From a virus: a stretch of 30,048 bases of DNA. Of the stretch, positions 7,376 through 30,048 are shown piece after piece. Made by a program: the position numbers and the translations under genes. The DNA is taken from IMG/VR virus record IMGVR_UViG_3300021963_000463, positions 1-30,048 of that record. The stretch is one strand, 5' to 3'. Position 1 is the stretch's first letter. Each line of letters begins with the position of its first letter. The notes below the pieces were generated by a model. It saw only the letters and a list, made by a program, of their open reading frames with translations. It was not told where the DNA came from and ran no database searches.

Positions 7376-10335
7376 TGTCTTTATCTGGCGATTATTTAGA
7401 TACTATAACTTCTCGTGGTGGAAGAAACTCTGGAATTACTTTTTTAGGTAATTTCGATATTAAAATATTGATGGTTGATCCTTCATTTCCTTTACCACCA
7501 GAGTTTTATGAATATAATAGATTAGTTGACAAAGTATACATTGGAAGTCATTTTGGTTTTGAGTTCCAATTAGATTTTTACTATGTTTTAAAAGGATCAG
7601 CTGTACCACCAAATGTAGGTTTTTGGCGTTGGACAGTACTATGTGATGTCAAGATTGTATATCCTGATGGTTATATAAAATCTCAAACAGTTTCTTTAGG
7701 AACAGAATTGGTTGATCCTGCTATTGAAGATTACAAAGAAGTTGCTTTTCCAATTTCTTTTAGTTCTACAAGTGTTTTTAATCCTGATAAAAGAGTAACG
7801 CTAACTGAGGATGCATCATATTTTTATCATCCTCCATTTACTACTTTAGATTTATATGAAGAAATACCAACTACAACAGTAGAATCTCTTTCAGTTACAG
7901 TAACAGGATTAGATTCTGCTACAGTTACAGAAAATGCACATGCTTTAACTGTTGATGCAACTACTGAATATAACTATACTATTACTACTGATTTGCATTC
8001 AAAAGGTTCTACTGCTGGTGTTCAACCATTACAGATTTCTAATTTAACCTTAAATGAATTAATAATTCCAGACTATACATATTTGCATGTAATTAATAGT
8101 AATAACTACTTTTATCAAACTACTTCTGTTGATGCAAAAATACAGGGTACAGATGATGCTTTTGGTGTTTCTGTTGAAAATCAAATATCTGCATCAACAA
8201 ATGTTACTTTAGAAAGAAATATTAAAAATAAAGGCATTATTAATTCTTGGCAAAGTTCTTATCCAGATGCATTAGATGTTGATATTGCAAAGTTTGATAT
8301 TACAGGAAGAACTATCACTGTACCTGGTGGATCTTTTGATGAATCTGAAACTTATCAAAAATATAGTTTTAATTCAACTATTACAATTGCAGGAACAGGA
8401 AATACACAATCTTTAATTTTTAATAATTTACCAACTGGATATATTCAAAATACAATTGATTCTGCTTCTTTAGTTGCAAATGGTGATTATGCTGATGCTG
8501 TAAGGCTTCCATTTAGAGGTTGGTGGAAGCCTGGTGCTGATATTTATCATTCTAAAAATACTGTTTTATCTGGAGTTGGAAATACTAGAAATGTTGATTA
8601 CAATTTTTCAGGATACAGATATTTAGATATTACTGGTGCATCTACAACTGCTTCTGATGAAACTGCAAAATTCACTGTTTCTTGGGATGGTATTGATGTA
8701 ATTTTAGAGAAGGATTTAATATTTTCTCCAGGTTCACAAACTAAAAGAATTGATTTATGTTTTGGTGGTATAGCACATACTTTATTTCCTGATATACAAG
8801 GTCAAGATAATCCTTATCCAAGAGTTAATTACATATTTGGTAATACAGTTGGAGCAGTTCAATACAATTCTGATATGTTTGGTATTGGACAAGTTAAAAA
8901 AATACAAACCACTGGAAATGTAAATATAAGTGAATATAAACTAACTCGTGAAGATAACACTGGAAAAGCATCATTTATTGCTCCATTTTCTACAGGTCAA
9001 ACAGCTGCAGGTACTTCTTCTAATGGATTCTCTAATTGGCAAACTGATTCTCCAACTAGATCATTTTGGAGTAGAAGATTTTGGGAACAAGATGTAAGTG
9101 GAAAAAATGAAGAAGAGTTTGATTATGGTTTTGAATACCTTTTAACTAGTGGTATAGCAGCAAGTCAATACGCAATATCTGTACAGGTATTATGCGACAA
9201 TATAAATGACCGTAGAGATATTAATAATGTTAAAATACATACAGGTTGGTTAGCTTCTCCATCTTATGATTCTGGAGCTGTAGGTACTAATGAATCATTA
9301 TTTAATAAAGATGCAGCTTATTGCTCATGGTTGAATGGTTTTGGTCAACAATGTATTGCTGGAATTAGTGATTTTTCAATTCTTAGAGATTTATCAGAAG
9401 AATATGGTAGTAGAGATATTTACACTCAACTAATATTTGATCGTTTAAATTGTAATTATCCTCCAGATTACTATGATCCTTTCCAATTAGAAGCACCTGG
9501 AGAAACAGATCTTTTACTTTACTCTTTTAGCTGTTTAAGATCAGCAGCACATGGACTAGTACAAGAATCTTTATTAGGACAAGTAGTTAACTTAGAAGAT
9601 ACAAGTGCAAATATATGGGGTCAAGGTACTACAGATATAGTAGGTTCTTATCAAACTGGATTACCTGGAGGATTACCTGAGAATGCTGGAAGAATTGGAT
9701 ATGTTACTGGCATTATTCCAATTACAAAAGTATTTACTGCTAAAAGAGATAGAGGTTCTTTTTATCTAAACATTCCTACTACAGGTAATATTCTTTCTGC
9801 TGATATCAGCGGTTTTTACCAACATTTGATAGGTTTTAGTAATGCTGGGACTCTAAACCTTATTCTTTCAGATTCATTCAATTTTTCCACCTTTATTTAT
9901 CTAGTAACAAACGTAACTAGTATTACAAATGGTGCAGTTAGATGGAAAAGAAAAACTAGTGATAATCAAATTATTGCTACAGTTGAAGAATCATCTGGAA
10001 GTGTTAAAAGATATGAATTTGATAATTTAATTACTGGAGTAGCTGGAATGGCAACAACTTTAGGTACTGGAACACAACCAGCATTAGCAATTAATAATAA
10101 TGGATTTGAATTACATTTCTTTAGAACTACTGATGCTGGTGGATCAATTAAAAGAGTTGGTATTGACAATAATGGAGATATTATAATTCCAGCTTCAATT
10201 GTAGTATCTGGAAATGTAACTACTAATGGATTAGCAGCATACTGGTATGACGATATACCTTATTTAGTTTATTCACATGCTACTAATGGAATCACAGTAG
10301 TCAAATCTGATGACTATGGCAATACATTCAGTTAA
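7375..10335 (+). CDS. Large tail fibre/tail tip protein ending at an Asp-box-like motif
   Basis: This 986-aa, beta-rich protein is coupled by TAATG to the gene before it and is the last gene of the tail operon, a common place for receptor-binding proteins. The N-terminal 150 residues include TFLGNFDIKILMVDP, probably an attachment region. The rest is Ser/Thr/Asn/Gly-rich. The last 70 residues resemble BNR/sialidase-type beta-propeller strands and end in KSDDYGNTFS, which fits the Asp-box pattern SxDxGxTx. One such motif does not show sialidase activity. The protein stops directly at the motif, so it may be shortened relative to an ancestor. A strong terminator follows 2 nt after the stop. Confidence 0.65.
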   Translation: MSLSGDYLDTITSRGGRNSGITFLGNFDIKILMVDPSFPLPPEFYEYNRLVDKVYIGSHFGFEFQLDFYYVLKGSAVPPNVGFWRWTVLCDVKIVYPDGYIKSQTVSLGTELVDPAIEDYKEVAFPISFSSTSVFNPDKRVTLTEDASYFYHPPFTTLDLYEEIPTTTVESLSVTVTGLDSATVTENAHALTVDATTEYNYTITTDLHSKGSTAGVQPLQISNLTLNELIIPDYTYLHVINSNNYFYQTTSVDAKIQGTDDAFGVSVENQISASTNVTLERNIKNKGIINSWQSSYPDALDVDIAKFDITGRTITVPGGSFDESETYQKYSFNSTITIAGTGNTQSLIFNNLPTGYIQNTIDSASLVANGDYADAVRLPFRGWWKPGADIYHSKNTVLSGVGNTRNVDYNFSGYRYLDITGASTTASDETAKFTVSWDGIDVILEKDLIFSPGSQTKRIDLCFGGIAHTLFPDIQGQDNPYPRVNYIFGNTVGAVQYNSDMFGIGQVKKIQTTGNVNISEYKLTREDNTGKASFIAPFSTGQTAAGTSSNGFSNWQTDSPTRSFWSRRFWEQDVSGKNEEEFDYGFEYLLTSGIAASQYAISVQVLCDNINDRRDINNVKIHTGWLASPSYDSGAVGTNESLFNKDAAYCSWLNGFGQQCIAGISDFSILRDLSEEYGSRDIYTQLIFDRLNCNYPPDYYDPFQLEAPGETDLLLYSFSCLRSAAHGLVQESLLGQVVNLEDTSANIWGQGTTDIVGSYQTGLPGGLPENAGRIGYVTGIIPITKVFTAKRDRGSFYLNIPTTGNILSADISGFYQHLIGFSNAGTLNLILSDSFNFSTFIYLVTNVTSITNGAVRWKRKTSDNQIIATVEESSGSVKRYEFDNLITGVAGMATTLGTGTQPALAINNNGFELHFFRTTDAGGSIKRVGIDNNGDIIIPASIVVSGNVTTNGLAAYWYDDIPYLVYSHATNGITVVKSDDYGNTFS

Positions 10336-10336
10336 C

Positions 10337-10374
10337 AAAAAAAATACCTCTAAGAAATTAGAGGTATTTTTTTT
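10337..10374. terminator. Bidirectional intrinsic terminator at the end of the tail operon
   Basis: A perfect 17-bp stem (10337-10353 with 10358-10374) encloses a GAAA tetraloop. The stem core is TACCTCTAA/TTAGAGGTA, flanked by an A8 tract and a T8 tract. It starts 2 nt after the stop of the 986-aa tail gene. Confidence 0.93.
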
Positions 10375-10405
10375 AGGTTAGGAGAAGGTATTTGTATGTA
10401 GTTAA

Positions 10406-10594
10406 ATGATAGATACAAACATATTATACCAAATGATTAATCAAAATCAATACATACCTGAGCCTTGTTTTTTCCTATCAATTTTAAGTGATAGGGATCA
10501 ATTAACGTTCATTCTACTACAACAACAAATTATTGAAGAAATCACTAGTAAAACCAGTCGTTTTCATGTGATTGAGGATATTCTCTTATGTTAA
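10406..10594 (+). CDS. Small hypothetical protein (62 aa), doubtful
   Basis: This is a short ORF between two terminators. A purine-rich GGAGAAGG at 10381-10388 is too far (17 nt) from the ATG to be a normal ribosome binding site, and the codon before the ATG is a stop. The product has no recognised domain or membrane segment. Its last codons overlap a possible 20-aa ORF at 10588. It is listed because it fills the only open space in this interval and the following terminator reads in its direction. Confidence 0.35.
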   Translation: MIDTNILYQMINQNQYIPEPCFFLSILSDRDQLTFILLQQQIIEEITSKTSRFHVIEDILLC

Positions 10595-10650
10595 TTAACA
10601 TCACCGATAAAAGAATTTTAGTTTGGTTAGCTAATGAATTGAAACGATAA
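10588..10650 (+). CDS. Possible 20-aa peptide ORF overlapping the preceding gene
   Basis: An ATG at 10588 overlaps the end of the preceding 62-aa ORF (ATGTTAA) and opens a 20-codon frame ending LANELKR and TAA, directly before a terminator. The overlap resembles the coupled starts seen elsewhere in this genome, but nothing else supports translation and it could be chance. Confidence 0.2.
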   Translation: MLINITDKRILVWLANELKR

Positions 10651-10656
10651 AAAAAG

Positions 10657-10686
10657 AAAGACTGGGATTTTACTCTCAGTCTTTTT
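10657..10686. terminator. Bidirectional terminator between convergent genes
   Basis: AAAGACTGGGA (10657-10667) pairs with TCTCAGTCTTT (10674-10684), giving 11 bp with one G-U pair and a 6-nt loop. An A-run lies on one side and a T-run on the other, so it can serve the rightward ORFs and the leftward gene at 10718-10918. Confidence 0.85.
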
Positions 10687-10717
10687 AATATCAATTATAA
10701 AATGGCTCTACTTTATT

Positions 10718-10918
10718 TTACATACAAGATTCATGTAAAAACTCTCTTGTATATTTTTTCTGTAATTCTTTCAAATTGATCATTTGATATCTAAGATGGA
10801 TCTCTTTGTAATCCTCTTTCTTCTTCTTCTCAAATTCCTCATCTTGCTTTCTAATCTTTTCAAGATCAACATCTTCAAATGCTTTCATAAACTCTTCAAA
10901 TACTTGCTCTTTATCCAT
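10718..10918 (-). CDS. Small charged hypothetical protein (66 aa), probably from a leaderless mRNA
   Basis: This Lys/Glu-rich helical protein begins MDKEQVFEEFMKAFEDVDLE and has no recognised domain. The frame is open upstream to an ATG at 10996 (92 aa). However, a perfect sigma70 promoter (TTGACA, 17 nt, TATAAT) lies inside that longer frame, with its -10 box ending 6 nt before the ATG at 10918. Transcription should therefore begin at or next to this ATG, and I take it as the start. The opposite-strand ORF at 10784-11152 looks like a shadow, because its apparent hydrophobicity is the complement of Lys/Glu codons. It lies beside the iteron array, so a regulatory or copy-control role is conceivable but not shown. 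Confidence 0.6.
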   Translation of the reverse strand: MDKEQVFEEFMKAFEDVDLEKIRKQDEEFEKKKKEDYKEIHLRYQMINLKELQKKYTREFLHESCM

Positions 10919-10924
10919 GCTCTT

Positions 10925-10953
10925 ATTATAACTGTATTTCTTATAATTGTCAA
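10925..10953 (-). promoter_or_regulatory. Consensus sigma70 promoter for the leftward 66-aa gene
   Basis: On the minus strand TTGACA (10953-10948) and TATAAT (10930-10925) are separated by exactly 17 nt, matching both consensus hexamers fully. Only six bases (AAGAGC) separate the -10 box from the ATG, so the transcript should start at or near the start codon. Confidence 0.85.
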
Positions 10954-11066
10954 ATTCAGTTTTTCCTGTAATCAAACTTTCTTTGATAGGAAACATGATA
11001 ATTCTATTCTTATTATCTTAGAGAATTCTTGGATCTTGAGAAAGAAGACGAATTGTTTAGCCTATG

Positions 11067-11188
11067 ATTGTTTGACACCTAATAAAATCGTCAAACAAAA
11101 ATTAGCTAATCGTCAAACAAAAAATACTCAAGTGTCAAACAAAAATTACTAAATCGTCAAACAAATATTATTTGTATTTTTGTTTGAC
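11067..11188. repeat. 22-bp iteron array, candidate replication origin or operator cluster
   Basis: Four direct copies of GTCAAACAAA start at 11090, 11112, 11134 and 11156, exactly 22 bp apart. The 22-bp units run 11084-11105, 11106-11127, 11128-11149 and 11150-11171, with consensus core AATCGTCAAACAAAAATTA. Inverted copies flank them at 11067-11076 (9 of 10 matches) and 11179-11188 (10 of 10), also close to the 22-bp grid. Between the last direct and the right inverted copy is an AT-only-stemmed palindrome, ACAAATA T TATTTGT with C/G only at the outer pair region (11161-11175). Two-turn phasing upstream of a DNA-binding protein gene is typical of iteron origins of plasmids and some phages; an operator cluster is the alternative. 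Confidence 0.8.
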
Positions 11189-11221
11189 GGTTGTATGTTG
11201 CAGGTCAGTTTTATTTGGTTG

Positions 11222-11230
11222 TGGTATAGT
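11222..11230 (+). promoter_or_regulatory. Extended -10 promoter for the structured leader and the DNA-binding protein
   Basis: TGGTATAGT carries the TGn extension and a one-mismatch -10 hexamer. No good -35 lies at 16-18 nt. Transcription would begin near 11237, just before the pairing elements of the leader. The iterons lie directly upstream, so binding there could control this promoter. Confidence 0.5.
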
Positions 11231-11240
11231 ATATTTGGAA

Positions 11241-11332
11241 GTCATTCCACTCGCCTCAAAATGTCTGTAGAGAGATTGCAAGCTCTCTACAGATCAGCGA
11301 ATAGGAATGGTCCAGAGGCGAATTATGAATGA
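11241..11332 (+). promoter_or_regulatory. Structured 5' leader that can sequester the SD and start codon; possible pseudoknot switch
   Basis: A central hairpin pairs CTGTAGAGAG (11265-11274) with CTCTCTACAG (11283-11292), loop 8 nt. TCGCCTC (11251-11257) is complementary to GAGGCGA (11315-11321), which contains the GAGG Shine-Dalgarno of the ATG at 11325. CATTCC (11243-11248) can pair with GGAATG (11304-11309), giving a pseudoknot with the previous helix. Alternatively TCATTC (11242-11247) can pair with GAATGA (11327-11332), giving a nested stem over the start codon. The two options exclude each other. This fits translational control, as in plasmid rep leaders regulated by pseudoknots; it has not been tested. 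Confidence 0.65.
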
Positions 11333-12101
11333 AAAAGTGTATGAGTCTGTAAAGTCTCAAGTAGAATCAATTATTTTTAACAGAGAGCTTGATAATCTTT
11401 CTGGTTACTATCTTTCTTTTCCTGATTATATCAACGTAATCCATGATAATCAAAATCTTTACAAATCAGAATTACAAACTTTTATTAATTATGCAATATG
11501 TAATAACTTATCGATTGATAAAAATACAGTTGGATATGATTTTTTAACTGAAAGATTAGGTCACCTTTCTTACAAATATGCTAATCAAAAAAAAGAAAAT
11601 ATTGAGGATATCATTATCAGTCCAGAAAATCAAGAGATAAGCAATAAAAGAAAAGTTGGAAGACCTAAAGGTTCAAAAAATATTATTAAAGTAAATATTC
11701 CAAGACATAAAATTATTGATAGTCAAATAATTCCTGCAATTCAAGATTTAATTTGGTATCGATCTGGAATGTTAGCAAAAGAAATAATTAATCAATTAGA
11801 TCTTGATGAATCAATTGTGAAATTAGCATTTGGTAAATTGCATGAATATTCAGGGACTCATTGGATTAAACAAAAGAAAAAACTTCCTAATGGTGGAATA
11901 TGTGAAAGATATTATCCAATTAAGGACAGATCTGGATATTTTTATGATGGTAAATTGATGTCCCTCGGTGAAATATCTAAAATAACTGGAAAATCTAAGC
12001 AAATCCTTTCATATAGAATAAAGAAAGGCTTGAACCATATTGAAGCTATAAACAATCAAATTAATGATAAAATGATACGAAGAAATCCAAATAAACAATA
12101 G
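11325..12101 (+). CDS. DNA-binding protein with AT-hook-like and HTH motifs; candidate replication initiator
   Basis: This 258-aa protein has no family I can name with certainty. Around residues 110-120 it has KRKVGRPKGSKN, an AT-hook-like GRPKGSK motif. Next comes a possible winged-helix region (IPAIQDLIWYRSGMLAKEII onward), then a C-terminal HTH-like segment LGEISKITGKSKQILSYRIK, a type also seen attached to phage nucleases. I choose the ATG at 11325 because GAGG lies 6 nt upstream. The frame is also open to an ATG at 11307 (264 aa), which lies inside a paired element and lacks an SD. Position just downstream of iterons and a structured leader suggests a Rep-like initiator or regulator, by inference only. 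A GIY-YIG gene follows 11 nt later. Confidence 0.7.
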   Translation: MNEKVYESVKSQVESIIFNRELDNLSGYYLSFPDYINVIHDNQNLYKSELQTFINYAICNNLSIDKNTVGYDFLTERLGHLSYKYANQKKENIEDIIISPENQEISNKRKVGRPKGSKNIIKVNIPRHKIIDSQIIPAIQDLIWYRSGMLAKEIINQLDLDESIVKLAFGKLHEYSGTHWIKQKKKLPNGGICERYYPIKDRSGYFYDGKLMSLGEISKITGKSKQILSYRIKKGLNHIEAINNQINDKMIRRNPNKQ

Positions 12102-12112
12102 AAAGCATAGAA

Positions 12113-12643
12113 ATGCAAGATTTTGAAAAATTACTTGATAGAGTCATTCCAGAATCAGACAAGCTTAAAGATTATGTTTACACTCTTTTACTCGAAAATA
12201 ATAATTATTATGTTGGATATACTAACAACATATATAAAAGAATGAAACTACATTTTACAGGCAAAGGTAGTGACTGGACTAAATTACATAAGCCAATTAA
12301 AATAATCAAAATAGTAGAAGGTAATACAAAAACAGAAACTCAAGAAACTTTGAACTTGATGAAGAAAAAAGGTTCAAGAGTTAGAGGTGCTGGTTGGTGT
12401 GATGTAATTATGGATAGCCCACCAATTGAATTATATGAGCATTTCAATTGGAAACCATATTATTTAGCTAAAGCACCAAATGGAACTACCTTATATTATA
12501 AATTTGATGGTGAAAAACATGTATGCCTTACTGGATTGAACAGAAATACATTTGCTGACATAAATTATGATCTAAAAGCTTTTAAAAAATTAGCTAGATG
12601 TAAATTAGTTAAATATAAAGAAGAAGATGAAGTAACAGAATAA
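12113..12643 (+). CDS. GIY-YIG endonuclease-like protein
   Basis: The 176-aa protein has the family's N-terminal signature: VYTL at residues 22-25 in place of GIY, YVG at 33-35 in place of YIG, and a conserved Arg near 43 (YKRMKLH). A region around 95-105 (RVRGAGWCDVI) is of a kind found in other phage GIY-YIG proteins. These are single-domain nucleases or homing-type enzymes that cut DNA with a metal ion. It begins 11 nt after the preceding gene, probably in the same transcript, with only a weak ribosome binding site. It may be mobile, or act in replication or recombination. A strong terminator overlaps its stop codon. Confidence 0.8.
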   Translation: MQDFEKLLDRVIPESDKLKDYVYTLLLENNNYYVGYTNNIYKRMKLHFTGKGSDWTKLHKPIKIIKIVEGNTKTETQETLNLMKKKGSRVRGAGWCDVIMDSPPIELYEHFNWKPYYLAKAPNGTTLYYKFDGEKHVCLTGLNRNTFADINYDLKAFKKLARCKLVKYKEEDEVTE

Positions 12644-12670
12644 AAAAACCCCAGGAAACTGGGGTTTTTT
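12643..12670. terminator. Bidirectional terminator with GAAA loop
   Basis: AAAAAACCCCAG (12643-12654) pairs perfectly with CTGGGGTTTTTT (12659-12670) around a GAAA tetraloop. It ends the rightward DNA-binding/GIY-YIG unit and, read on the other strand, the leftward gene ending at 12688. Confidence 0.92.
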
Positions 12671-12687
12671 AAGTTATTTAAAAGAGT

Positions 12688-13086
12688 TTAAACCTTTCTC
12701 ATTCTCAAATTGTAACCATTAGAATTAACTAGCAAAAACATATTGTCATAGTTGCTATAAAATAATAAACCGTTTTGTTTATTATCTTCTTCAAATCTAC
12801 AAATCTCTTGGTTATTCAAATAGTCCAAAGTACATAAGTCTTTCAAGCCATAAGTGTTGTAATTGAAAAAATCTATATGATACTTTCCAGATAAATAAAA
12901 CTTAACTAAAAAGAAAGACTTATTCATGTAATTAAAATATAAACTTAATTTAACTCGCTCATAATTATTCACAGCTATTAATTCTAAATCACCAATAATT
13001 CTATATGATCCAAATACATTTACAATTGGATTGACCTCTTTCTCATTAAACATATCATCAGTAATCAAACTTTTAACCTTCTTCAT
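12688..13086 (-). CDS. Hypothetical protein (132 aa), divergent from the HTH operon
   Basis: The product, starting MKKVKSLITDDMFNEKE, has many Asn, Tyr and Phe residues and no recognised domain, signal or membrane segment. I use the ATG at 13086, since GAGG lies 7 nt upstream inside the predicted leader and transcription should start about 13098-13096. The frame extends four codons further to a GTG at 13098, only 5 nt from the -10 box, which would make a leaderless alternative. It has a perfect sigma70 promoter back-to-back with that of the Cro-like gene, so it is probably an early gene under the same operator, as in phage immunity or switch regions. Confidence 0.7.
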   Translation of the reverse strand: MKKVKSLITDDMFNEKEVNPIVNVFGSYRIIGDLELIAVNNYERVKLSLYFNYMNKSFFLVKFYLSGKYHIDFFNYNTYGLKDLCTLDYLNNQEICRFEEDNKQNGLLFYSNYDNMFLLVNSNGYNLRMRKV

Positions 13087-13103
13087 TTGTAACCTCACCT
13101 ATC

Positions 13104-13132
13104 ATTATAACGAATACTGTAATAAATGTCAA
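13104..13132 (-). promoter_or_regulatory. Consensus sigma70 promoter, leftward
   Basis: On the minus strand TTGACA (13132-13127) and TATAAT (13109-13104) stand 17 nt apart, a full consensus match. It drives the 132-aa gene ending at 12688. Confidence 0.85.
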
Positions 13133-13145
13133 ACATCCTTGGACA
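13127..13145. promoter_or_regulatory. Candidate operator dyad between divergent promoters
   Basis: TGTCAAA (13127-13133) and TTGGACA (13139-13145) form an imperfect inverted repeat (6 of 7 pairs, 5-nt centre). It covers the -35 boxes of both divergent promoters. A dimer of the adjacent Cro-like protein binding here would block both. Because the arms overlap TTGACA-type boxes, part of the symmetry may come from the promoters themselves. Confidence 0.5.
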
Positions 13146-13168
13146 AATATACATAAAAATGTTATAAT
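13140..13168 (+). promoter_or_regulatory. sigma70 promoter of the HTH-sigma-terminase operon
   Basis: TGGACA (13140-13145, one mismatch) and TATAAT (13163-13168) are 17 nt apart. Six bases (AGAGGT) separate the -10 box from the ATG at 13175, so the mRNA is probably leaderless for the first gene, like lambda cI transcribed from PRM. Confidence 0.8.
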
Positions 13169-13174
13169 AGAGGT

Positions 13175-13384
13175 ATGGCAAAACGAAATGATTTGTTGAT
13201 CACAGAATTAACACAAATGCAAATAGCGGAAAAGCTAGGAGTAGCTCAACCACTTATAAGTAGATGGATGTCAGGAAGGTGTATGCCACGTCCATCAACA
13301 ATAACTAAATTAGCAGAAGCATTAGGTGTAGATGAAAAAGAGTTATTAGTTTATATATATGACAAAAATAAGAAGATGGTCTGA
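13175..13384 (+). CDS. Cro/C1-type (XRE family) HTH transcriptional regulator
   Basis: This 69-aa protein is little more than one XRE helix-turn-helix: LTQMQIAEKLGVAQPLISRW at about residues 12-31, then STITKLAEALGVDEKEL. It lacks the C-terminal peptidase or oligomerisation domain of CI repressors, so it resembles Cro or a plasmid copy-control regulator. It is the first gene of an operon and lies beside a dyad overlapping both divergent promoters, so autoregulation is likely. The ATG is 6 nt from TATAAT. Its 3' end overlaps the next gene's start by 26 nt in another frame. Confidence 0.88.
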   Translation: MAKRNDLLITELTQMQIAEKLGVAQPLISRWMSGRCMPRPSTITKLAEALGVDEKELLVYIYDKNKKMV

Positions 13385-14126
13385 ATATTACAAGGTCAAG
13401 AAGGATAATGAGGGAAGACCAACATTATCTCAAGACGCTTTTTTGTCATCTCAATTAAACACTAAAAACAGAGAGAAAGCCCTCAACGAATACATTGAAC
13501 TAAATATGCTAGTAGTCCATAAAATCTGCAAAAATTATAGGTGGAGTAATATTGATTATGAAGATTTAGTGATGTATGGAGTTGAAGGATTAATAGCTGC
13601 AGCCGATTGTTATGATCCAAGTAAAGGATTCAAGTTCCACACCTTTTGCTATCATTATATACTTGGAAGAATTAGAAGAGCTTTAGAACATCACAACAAT
13701 ATTATCAAGATACCAGCACATATAAACTTAGCAAAATTAAGAATCAACCATTTAGACGAAGATAAAGAATACTCTGATGAATTCTTATTGACACTTACAG
13801 ATGAAAGATACACTTTGAATGATATTAAAACAGCATTAAGTGTTAGAAAATTATATGCTATTGATAACTTGGATTTGATTGTAGATAGAGTAGATGAAAG
13901 TATTAAAAATCCTGAGGTTAAGATATGTATTGATGAGATTCTAGATACATTAAAACCTATAGAAAAACAGGCAATAGAACTCAAATTTGGATTGAATGGA
14001 CATAAACCACATTACTATAAAGAGATTGATAAAATATTAGATATTGATAGTGATGGTGTAATTAACAGGGCATTAGTAAGATTGCGTAATAAGGGTTTGG
14101 AAAGTTTACTGGATTATTTAAAATGA
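13359..14126 (+). CDS. Phage RNA polymerase sigma factor (sigma70 family)
   Basis: The 255-aa protein has a clear region 2 at about residues 41-110, with DYEDLVMYGVEGLIAA, YDPSKGFKFHTFCYHYI and RIRRALEH, the core-binding and -10 recognition segments. A short region 3-like part follows (IKIPAHINLAKLRI). A region 4-like HTH lies near the C-terminus (LKPIEKQAIELKFGLNG to NRALVRLRNKG). Region 1.1 is absent. It should redirect host RNA polymerase to phage late promoters; the repeated 14-mer upstream of portal, protease and connector genes is the obvious candidate target. The start overlaps the HTH gene by 26 nt, and its stop overlaps the terminase small subunit start (ATGA), so it is made before or with the packaging enzymes. 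Confidence 0.9.
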   Translation: MTKIRRWSEYYKVKKDNEGRPTLSQDAFLSSQLNTKNREKALNEYIELNMLVVHKICKNYRWSNIDYEDLVMYGVEGLIAAADCYDPSKGFKFHTFCYHYILGRIRRALEHHNNIIKIPAHINLAKLRINHLDEDKEYSDEFLLTLTDERYTLNDIKTALSVRKLYAIDNLDLIVDRVDESIKNPEVKICIDEILDTLKPIEKQAIELKFGLNGHKPHYYKEIDKILDIDSDGVINRALVRLRNKGLESLLDYLK

Positions 14127-14554: not shown

Positions 14555-15860
14555 AAACAAATACATAGAGTTCTTGCATCAAACTAGTCCAAGATCTTTC
14601 AAGTTTAATTACAAACATATAGAGCTTTTATCTGAAGTTTTATTAAAAGTATTCAACGGAGAAATTAAAAGATTAATTATTACAATGCCTCCAAGACATG
14701 CAAAAAGTGAAACTGTTACTATGAGATTTGCTGCTTACTGGATGCAATATAAAGCTAATCAAAATGTTCTTGTTGCTGGATATAATCAAAATATTGGACG
14801 TAGATTTTCCAGACGTACTAGAAATATATTAATGGAAAGAATTGGTTTAAATAATAATCACCAATCTATCGATGAATGGTCTACTCCAAACAATTCCACT
14901 TATTATGTCGGAAGTGTAAACAACGCAAAAACTGGCATTGGATTTAATTTGATTCTTTTAGACGACCTTATTAAATCCAGAGAAGAAGCAAATAGTCCTC
15001 AAATACGTCAAAGATTAGAAGATTTTTACTCCGAAGATCTGTATTCTAGACTTGAACCCAACGGAACCTTGATAATTACTCAGACTCGTTGGCATGAAAA
15101 TGACGTTGTTGCTTACGCTATGTCTAAAGAACCAGATGCATGGACAGTTATTAATTTACCAGCATTAGCAGAAGATGAGAACGATATTTTAGGAAGAAAA
15201 ATTGACGAACCACTTTGGCCAGAACGTTATAGTCAGGAAACATTATTTGGCATTCGCAGTGTACTTGGAGATTATTCCTTTCAAGCTCTGTACCAAGGCC
15301 GACCAACTTCAAAGGATGGTGATTTTTTTAAACCAAATAATATTAGTCTTAAAAATACACCAGGAAATATCGTTAGAAAAGTACGAGCTTATGATGTGGC
15401 CAATTCTCAAGGAAAAGGCGACTATACTGTTTCGGCCTTACTTGGTATAGACGATAAAGATCACTACTGGATTCTTGACTTATGGCGAGCTCAATTAGGA
15501 ACCAAAGAACGTGATGAAAAAATACTTGAAACAGCAATTAAAGATGGCCAAGATGTAAAAATAATACTTCCCAATGATCCTGCAGCTGGAAAGAGTATGA
15601 CATTTTACTGGACTAAACTTCTTGCTGGTTTTAATGTTGTTTTTGAAAGGCCGACAAACTCTAAAGAATCAAGGGCATCAGCATTTAGTGTTCAGGTAAA
15701 TAATGGAAATGTTTCTATGCTGCAGGGAAATTGGAACTATGATATGATAAATGAGTTAAGGTCGTTTCCAAGTTCTAAGCATGACGACCAAATAGATGCT
15801 TTAAGTTCTGGTTTCAATGACTTAGCAATTAAAATTACAAGAAAGTTCCGTGCAATATGA
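14520..15860 (+). CDS. terL: Terminase large subunit (packaging ATPase and nuclease)
   Basis: Counting from the TTG at 14520, Walker A is PPRHAKSE (residues 57-64) and Walker B LILLDD (144-149). The C-terminal RNase H-like nuclease shows RAYDVANSQGKGDYT and HDDQIDAL, whose Asp residues would bind metal. It cleaves concatemeric or circular DNA and pumps it into the prohead through the portal. The start is uncertain: homologous sequence seems to begin near 14544, no ATG is nearby, and the in-frame ATG at 14382 would overlap the small terminase gene by 173 nt. I use the TTG at 14520, giving 446 aa, though no clear SD precedes it; TTG at 14574 is another option. The stop overlaps the next ATG. 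Confidence 0.92.
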   Translation: MTPISNQKIKFKNKYIEFLHQTSPRSFKFNYKHIELLSEVLLKVFNGEIKRLIITMPPRHAKSETVTMRFAAYWMQYKANQNVLVAGYNQNIGRRFSRRTRNILMERIGLNNNHQSIDEWSTPNNSTYYVGSVNNAKTGIGFNLILLDDLIKSREEANSPQIRQRLEDFYSEDLYSRLEPNGTLIITQTRWHENDVVAYAMSKEPDAWTVINLPALAEDENDILGRKIDEPLWPERYSQETLFGIRSVLGDYSFQALYQGRPTSKDGDFFKPNNISLKNTPGNIVRKVRAYDVANSQGKGDYTVSALLGIDDKDHYWILDLWRAQLGTKERDEKILETAIKDGQDVKIILPNDPAAGKSMTFYWTKLLAGFNVVFERPTNSKESRASAFSVQVNNGNVSMLQGNWNYDMINELRSFPSSKHDDQIDALSSGFNDLAIKITRKFRAI

Positions 15861-16237
15861 ATAAGTTATATAATTTTGATCCTTTTGATGGAGAAACTAC
15901 AACTAGATTAATGGATTGGCGGATATTGATACCGATAAACGATGTAGATATGGAGAAAGTAAATACCATTGCACAATCAATCCGAGAAAATGGTTGGAAT
16001 GATAGACCTTTATTAGCCATTGGAAACGAGGAAGATGCTTGTTTGATCACTGGCTCTCATCGTTTAAAAGCTTGTCAAATTCTAGATATTGATGTGCCAG
16101 TAGAGTTAATTTATGCTGATTATTTTGACTGGTATGATAAGGGATTAAGATTGGATAACGAAGGTGCAAGATTTGAATTATTGGAAGAGTATGGTAATGA
16201 ATATCAAAAGAGATTATTATCTTTAGAAGAAGAATAA
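15857..16237 (+). CDS. ParB/sulfiredoxin-fold domain protein
   Basis: The 126-aa protein has the compact ParB N-terminal (ParBc/Srx) pattern: a helix DMEKVNTIAQSIRENGW, a short strand RPLLAI, then ITGSHRLKACQIL with the GSHR motif at 66-69 corresponding to the GxxR nucleotide-binding box of ParB. There is no HTH or dimer domain, so it is not a complete partition protein. Free-standing ParBc proteins are common near phage terminases, with suggested roles as CTP-binding switches or nucleases. The ATG overlaps the large terminase stop (ATGA), pointing to translational coupling and a link with packaging or DNA handling. Confidence 0.8.
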   Translation: MNKLYNFDPFDGETTTRLMDWRILIPINDVDMEKVNTIAQSIRENGWNDRPLLAIGNEEDACLITGSHRLKACQILDIDVPVELIYADYFDWYDKGLRLDNEGARFELLEEYGNEYQKRLLSLEEE

Positions 16238-29556: not shown

Positions 29557-30032
29557 TGTCATTTGAACCATTAGTAATCTCTAAATGGATTTACGATACT
29601 TTAAGCACTGATGATACTTTAGCTGCATATTTATCAGGATCTAAAGCACCATACTATCAACAAGGTGTTTATTTAGAAGTAGCACCTGAGAAAGACCCAC
29701 GAACACAGCAAATGCCACAATTACCATACATTGTGTTTAGTAGGTCTGGATCTGATATTACTGATGAATCTGCCTTGTGTGGAAGTAGATATTATTCAAT
29801 TCCAGTATATAGAATAACTGTATGGGATAATAAAAATGGAAGTATCAGTTATTCAAAGCTTAAAAATATCATAGAAAGAGTGGATACATTACTTTCTAAT
29901 CAAAGCGTTGTTGATTCTGGCATTAAATTTTATTGTCAGAGATTTGATACTGATCAGCCGTTTGAAGTCGGTTCAGATGGCAGAGTCGATTATGGGTTAA
30001 CCATTTTATATCGTTTCAATACAATAGTATAA
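29556..30032 (+). CDS. Tail completion/tail terminator-like protein, complete copy
   Basis: The 158-aa protein starts at the ATG overlapping the gp10-like stop. It contains WIYDTLSTDDTLAAYL and PQLPYIVFSRSGSDITD, compatible with DUF3168/gpU-like tail terminators, which stop tube growth and bind the neck. The last 124 residues are repeated with four conservative changes at 2-376. In the closed genome it is followed directly by the tail tube gene (ATG at 389; AGAGG SD preserved in both copies). Confidence 0.8.
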   Translation: MSFEPLVISKWIYDTLSTDDTLAAYLSGSKAPYYQQGVYLEVAPEKDPRTQQMPQLPYIVFSRSGSDITDESALCGSRYYSIPVYRITVWDNKNGSISYSKLKNIIERVDTLLSNQSVVDSGIKFYCQRFDTDQPFEVGSDGRVDYGLTILYRFNTIV

Positions 30033-30048
30033 GAGGTAATAATTATGC
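29657..30048. repeat. Terminal overlap of the contig, right copy
   Basis: This copy corresponds base for base to 1-392 with 11 substitutions (left-copy positions 127, 129, 130, 142, 197, 201, 209, 211, 214, 235 and 271). It ends two bases into what is the second codon region of the tail tube gene start in the left copy. Confidence 0.9.

Follow-up and report, generated by a model that had tools for sequence, protein, structure and literature searches.

Organization of the iteron array and the rep gene

The DNA analysed here is a 30,048-nucleotide stretch, IMG/VR record IMGVR_UViG_3300021963_000463 (hereafter the window), which represents a complete tailed-phage genome. Around positions 10,718–13,384, it contains an array of direct repeats, iterons (11056–11188), a gene encoding a putative 258-amino-acid (aa) DNA-binding protein named here Rep (11325–12101, plus strand), and genes for a GIY-YIG nuclease, a small all-beta protein, and a Cro/CI-type regulator. 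We consider it quite probable, judging from sequence comparisons, that this block is a compact replication module with Rep as the initiator. The genes of the phage are ordered as tail, replication block, Cro-type regulator, sigma factor, terminase, portal, protease, capsid, head–tail joining, and tail again, with TerL, capsid, protease, and tail genes all present.

Four direct 15-bp iterons of the sequence GTCAAACAAAWATTA start at 11090, 11112, 11134, and 11156 on the plus strand, at an exact pitch of 22 bp. Iterons 1 (11090–11104) and 3 (11134–11148) read GTCAAACAAAAATTA, iteron 2 (11112–11126) reads GTCAAACAAAAAATA, and iteron 4 (11156–11170) reads GTCAAACAAATATTA. On the minus strand, an inverted copy flanks the array at each side; the outer one (GTCAAACAATCATA, about 11063–11076) has matching inverted copies in the related genomes G002 and L106, and the other (11174–11188), which separates the array from the rep promoter region, is placed alike in G002. 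Seven matches with up to two mismatches were observed against 0.92 expected, a count reached in 0 of 100 shuffles, and the 22-bp periodicity was reached in 0 of 500. Neither copy number nor periodicity is due to chance, and the iterons reported by a first-pass annotation, made by a model from the sequence alone, were confirmed. An iteron-type theta replicon is recognized by direct repeats at a pitch of about 17–22 bp, and four at 22 bp are found here. The GC content of the array is 23–28%. The GC skew of the genome is monotonic with the gene strand and gives no origin signal.

Beside the outermost inverted iteron lies a motif, TAGGCTAAA on the minus strand (TTTAGCCTA on the plus strand; 11056–11064). 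It occurs once in the window against 0.44 expected, so its singleness alone is not unlikely. Of the 11 genomes with this type of initiator, 10 have the motif set (TAGGCTAAA, and TATCCTAAA in relatives) next to the array and the eleventh (G007) has a one-base variant; the few remaining copies sit within genes. Since the same set is found beside arrays of different iteron types, the motif probably has a function separate from initiator binding, e.g., as a host-factor site or a melting region.

Rep had been described in the first-pass annotation as a protein without a nameable family, and no Pfam or NCBIfam family matches it above the cut-off. For the window protein and six relatives, no Pfam match to Rep_3, RepA_N, or Phage_rep_O was obtained at E ≤ 1, and a search of the Rep profile against PDB sequences gave no match. 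AlphaFold prediction, run together with seven members of the family (mean pLDDT 75, pTM 0.46), gives a helical domain (residues 1–88), a disordered linker with the GRPKGSKN sequence, a winged helix (126–198), and a beta-hairpin followed by a helix-turn-helix (HTH) (205–243). A comparison of the predicted structure with winged-helix initiators had been proposed as a check. The winged helix was indeed predicted; however, the PDB fold search returned only generic winged helices and methyltransferases with poor root-mean-square deviation, and no initiator family. The alignment to MecI and MarR-type domains (Z about 8) indicates a common fold only. Residues 180–252 match PHROG 3377 (E 2e-4), an HTH of the phage HNH/homing nuclease type, and the best viral fold match is an “HTH homing endonuclease” (probability 1.0, but E 0.02). 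The first-pass annotation had named, as an outcome that would refute its reading, a remote-homology match showing Rep to be only a nuclease-associated HTH. This is true of the last ~50 residues and not of the rest, because this HTH adjoins a winged helix in the same chain and no nuclease domain is found in Rep by Pfam, PHROGs, or NCBIfam.

Iteron sequence and the C-terminal half of Rep

Comparison of relatives indicates that the iteron sequence tracks the C-terminal half of Rep, with the same pairing in three genomes. The window and G002 have a common recognition stretch, TGKSKQILSYRIKKG, and a common iteron, GTCAAACAAA (type TGTCAAACAAA), while the HTH NNVKMGTIQRRFQKMS is common to L095 and G007, whose iteron, TTTTGTAGAT, recurs every 21 bp. 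In L004 and L085, HTH and iteron are both different. An unplanned test of this relation was provided by L106, a member of another phage group (its sigma factor is 29% identical), which was retrieved by protein similarity alone, together with type II proteins, through the N-terminus and linker. Its N-terminus is of the other type and its C-terminal half is 47% identical to that of the window protein, which predicts a window-type iteron. Such an iteron was found: TGTCCAACAAATAAT, in four copies at 22-bp pitch (0.01 expected), accompanied by an inverted copy and by the side motif seen in the window. In L106, 2.6 kb separate the array from rep, so the array is more than an operator of that gene.

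When 2.9 million viral contigs were scanned for the pattern, seven had at least three such iterons. A rep gene is visible in three of them, and all three encode this type; in the other four (L111, L113, L115, and L119), the array is close to the contig end and no rep is visible, so that the rep region appears to lie past it. Three further contigs (L112, L117, and L118) had one iteron-pattern pair each and were set aside as they look like other repeats.

Exchange of Rep for an AAA_25 ATPase

Some 45 related contigs were found in viral contig scans. Over the sequence stretches seen for each genome, the locus between the tail/lysis genes and the Cro–sigma pair is occupied either by a Rep-like protein, in 10 distinct genomes and with three types of sequence, or by an AAA_25 ATPase, in five genomes. 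The two occur together in no genome, and all blocks seen complete, with one exception, have one or the other. The alternative ATPase has a Pfam AAA_25 match at 3e-26, and among PHROGs with a name it is closest to primase/helicase proteins. This exchange is the best evidence that the locus serves replication.

The first-pass annotation had also noted that replication and integration genes are missing. This was borne out, as integrase, resolvase, ParA, DNA polymerase A, and the AAA_25 helicase were not found in the window in searches with working controls. Across ten records, family searches detected no tyrosine or serine recombinase, no DNA polymerase A, and no ParA (the ParA control was detected in 14 of 14); AAA_25 was found only in the two AAA_25-type records. 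No helicase or primase was found in the window phage.

Two observations concern the modules themselves. Directly behind the type I gene of G002 lies a second, shorter type II initiator paralogue (L078 8675–9196), separated by a 33-bp gap without an array. After the AAA_25 gene, short repeats GGTTCTTCGGTTCTTC are located in L083 (reverse strand, 1630–1700), L079, L098 (1350–1400), and L100 (5340–5380); they are a possible origin or terminator of this module type.

Proposed mechanism and alternative explanations

The exchange of Rep for AAA_25, the tracking of the iteron by the Rep C-terminus, and the lack of polymerase A, ParA, and recombinases point to an initiator. Rep most likely binds the iterons and recruits the host copying machinery. 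It would bind through its C-terminal half and open AT-rich DNA at or beside the array; the variable N-terminal domain would then recruit the host helicase and replisome, and the phage would be copied by host enzymes. More tentatively, the inverted iteron near the promoter and a structured leader, which can pair with the weak ribosome site and the start codon, may limit Rep synthesis. The earlier suggestion of a phage using host replication through its own initiator is well supported. Rep is most likely a previously undescribed initiator family, as far as the libraries used show, and a likely functional analogue of plasmid-type initiators with no homology to plasmid Rep. We also lean towards a more detailed proposal, in which iterons are recognized by the winged helix together with a homing-nuclease-type HTH, the recognition half and the origin are exchanged jointly and the N-terminus separately, and the whole module is interchangeable with an AAA_25 helicase-type one.

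Several data weigh against an initiator module. No initiator family matches Rep by sequence and its winged helix is a generic fold; the array contains no DnaA box, as neither of the two exact boxes in the genome lies there. Neither module was seen in the available stretch of L091, G006 lacks a periodic array, and the arrays of L086, L096, and G008 are weak. Fisher's test of periodic array against module type, with few genomes, gives only p = 0.08.

The position of the array just upstream of rep, the iteron copy of L004 standing in phase between the -10 element and the start codon, and the likeness of the winged helix to MarR/MecI repressors would all fit a transcription regulator with iterons as operators, replication starting elsewhere by an unrecognised route. 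We regard this as distinctly unlikely given the distant array of L106, the exchange of the module for a helicase/primase-type ATPase, and a closed genome with no other recognised replication gene. Repeat arrays bound by winged-helix proteins are found also in partition systems, and the array could be a centromere for single-protein segregation, or else a packaging site. Both ideas are very improbable: a ParA-type partition NTPase was not found, an AAA_25 replication-type ATPase can replace the module, and 3 kb separate the array from terS. It is scarcely credible that Rep is a DNA-binding partner of the adjacent GIY-YIG homing nuclease with the array as the nuclease target. The nuclease is indeed the next gene and the C-terminal HTH of Rep resembles those of phage HNH/homing nucleases (the PHROG 3377 and top viral fold matches); however, 8 of the 10 genomes with a Rep-like protein have no GIY-YIG gene, Rep itself has no nuclease domain, and BLAST detects no similarity between the two proteins.

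A different kind of alternative concerns lifestyle. The first-pass annotation proposed a phage-plasmid. On this reading the block would keep a temperate prophage that does not integrate stably maintained as a plasmid, Cro would control copy number, and the ParB-like protein would serve segregation. This lifestyle would come on top of the initiator function, so the probabilities of the two overlap. It draws on the iteron initiator, the Cro-type regulator, the lack of a detected integrase, and the circular map. Positions 1–392 and 29657–30048 align at 97% (the ends are not classed as a repeat), and G020, a contig of another sample 99.9% identical to the window, crosses the join at the spacing that a circular molecule would show, so the map closes at about 29,656 bp. 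Such a map does not separate plasmid from virion DNA, since circularly permuted DNA packaged by the headful mechanism assembles identically. A partition cassette (ParA, ParB, and site) is lacking, as no ParA was found. The ParB-like gene expected within the block does exist; however, it lies outside, at 15857–16237, matches no Pfam model, and is confined to the near-identical contig pair of the window, being absent from relatives. The Cro gene is probably better seen as part of a gene-expression switch than as a copy-number regulator, because it overlaps the sigma gene upstream of the terminase. Collections of 72,556 plasmids, 50,697 phages, and 84,980 genomes yielded no relative, and scans of the 84,980 genomes with the major capsid protein, aimed at a host via relatives, gave no match. 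The phage-plasmid proposal was therefore not upheld and is considered unlikely.

Relation to known replication systems

Lambda O, P1 RepA, and PLE RepA already exemplify the general plan; neither the initiator family nor the way it is built has, as far as the libraries show, been described. Lambda O and ori-lambda resemble the window system in combining a tailed phage, iterons, its own initiator, and the host replisome, whereas the window phage has no recognised P-like loader and no O-family match. Lambda iterons lie within the initiator gene, and those of the window lie outside theirs. With P1 RepA and the Rep proteins of iteron plasmids (Rep_3, pi, and RepE), the window shares direct iterons spaced about two helical turns apart, inverted iterons close to the rep promoter, and a predicted winged-helix initiator. 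In contrast to them, its initiator does not match Rep_3 in sequence and is predicted to combine a single winged helix with a homing-nuclease-type HTH, where theirs have two winged helices; the array lacks a DnaA box, and there is no parABS.

RepA of the Vibrio cholerae satellite PLE is an initiator with an iteron origin, in which the DNA-binding part covaries with the origin while the other domain stays, and modules are swapped (PMC7145576, PMC8263062). It belongs to the RepA_N family, its binding domain is N-terminal, and PLE replication needs ICP1 (PMC7145576, PMC8263062). Window Rep is alike in joining an initiator to iterons, in the presumed binding part that tracks the origin, and in module swapping; it differs in that the half tracking the iterons is the C-terminus and in the lack of a RepA_N match. 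Odn, a nuclease of the GIY-YIG superfamily, shares the RepA DNA-binding domain and cuts the iteron origin (PMC8263062). The GIY-YIG adjacency in the window is suggestive only, as this nuclease shares no detectable sequence with Rep. Likewise, Rep shares the C-terminal ~50-aa HTH cassette with the HNH/GIY-YIG homing nucleases of PHROG 3377, but the cassette is here fused to a winged helix, coupled to iterons, and found without a nuclease domain. Extrachromosomal mycobacterial prophages with repA were shown to be lysogenic plasmids, and parABS was studied in them (PMC7157519). Replication of a phage genome from a RepA-like protein is predicted here too.

An initiator of an unnamed family offers one concrete reason why some small uncultured phages have no annotated replication genes. 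Its iterons would mark the origin, and arrays could locate origins in other such phages. The natural matched variants of protein and iteron constitute a ready test of how initiator specificity is rebuilt, and, as in the PLE/Odn pair, initiators appear linked with the DNA-binding parts of homing nucleases.

The rep leader and neighbouring genes

A candidate rep promoter with an extended -10 element, TGGTATAGT (in G002, TGGTATATT), was read from the sequence at 11222–11230 (plus strand). Downstream, at 11264–11293 (plus strand), lies a hairpin, TCTGTAGAGAG-ATTGCAAG-CTCTCTACAGA, with the loop TTGCAAG. The leader folds with a z-score of -3.2 in the window and -5.3 in G002, and G002 retains the hairpin with both partners replaced in 8 of 11 stem pairs, in this comparison of two sequences. 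Such two-sided changes favour an RNA structure over a protein-binding dyad and agree with the structured, rep-like leader noted earlier. The fold of lowest energy covers the weak ribosome site with a CGCCUC–GAGGCG pairing and pairs UCAUUC with the start region; judging from this one fold, the leader may hold back translation. Upstream of those type II and III rep genes that were read, no such hairpin leader was found. An Rfam scan of the block gave nothing above the gathering score, and the PK-repBA match at 10421–10468 (19.9 bits against a cut-off of 45) was dismissed as chance.

The first-pass annotation did not name two genes in or against the block, a GIY-YIG nuclease (12113–12643, plus strand; Pfam PF01541, 1.3e-10) and a phage sigma-70-like factor (13359–14126, plus strand). 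The nuclease gene is present in the window pair and in L085 (56% identity, behind a different rep type) and is missing from L086, the sister of L085; this patchy presence across rep types marks it as a passenger. A bidirectional terminator-like hairpin (12643–12670) closes the rep unit. The all-beta protein (12688–13098, minus strand) has no interpretable fold match. It occurs with both module types, and in the AAA_25 genomes L098, G005, and L100 its gene lies directly upstream of the ATPase gene, which suggests that it may be a replication accessory. In L091 and L092 (3300036398_004195 and 3300042569_002538), which look like one phage, the block has no genes besides those of the all-beta protein and an HNH nuclease.

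The Cro-sized regulator with divergent promoters was found as described earlier. It is a 69-aa Cro/CI-type HTH protein (13175–13384, plus strand; Pfam HTH_31/HTH_3) whose order is kept in relatives, and the Cro–sigma overlap is a feature of this phage family. The promoters (13104–13168) score 12/12 on the minus strand (13132–13104) and 11/12 on the plus strand (13140–13168); despite this near-perfect pair, the total of promoter-like sites is at chance level. Most relatives have a gene of 76–87 aa just upstream of Cro, which is missing in the window (13098–13175), L085, and L086. The sigma factor flanks the replication module from outside and is assigned by PHROG 351 (5e-33) and NCBIfam; its best NCBIfam match, a cyanobacterial subfamily model, is far below the cut-off and was not used to name a host.

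Upstream of the block, many relatives (L004, G002, G008, and L091) have a CHAP-type lysin after the last tail gene, which is not found in the window (10335–10996), L085, or L086; in this clade, no lysis gene was recognised. In the same region of the window, a perfect TTGACA-17-TATAAT promoter sequence lies on the minus strand (10919–10953) inside a predicted 92-aa open reading frame, and L085 is arranged alike. This position suggests that the reading frame actually begins at about 10919, leaving a short leader or none.

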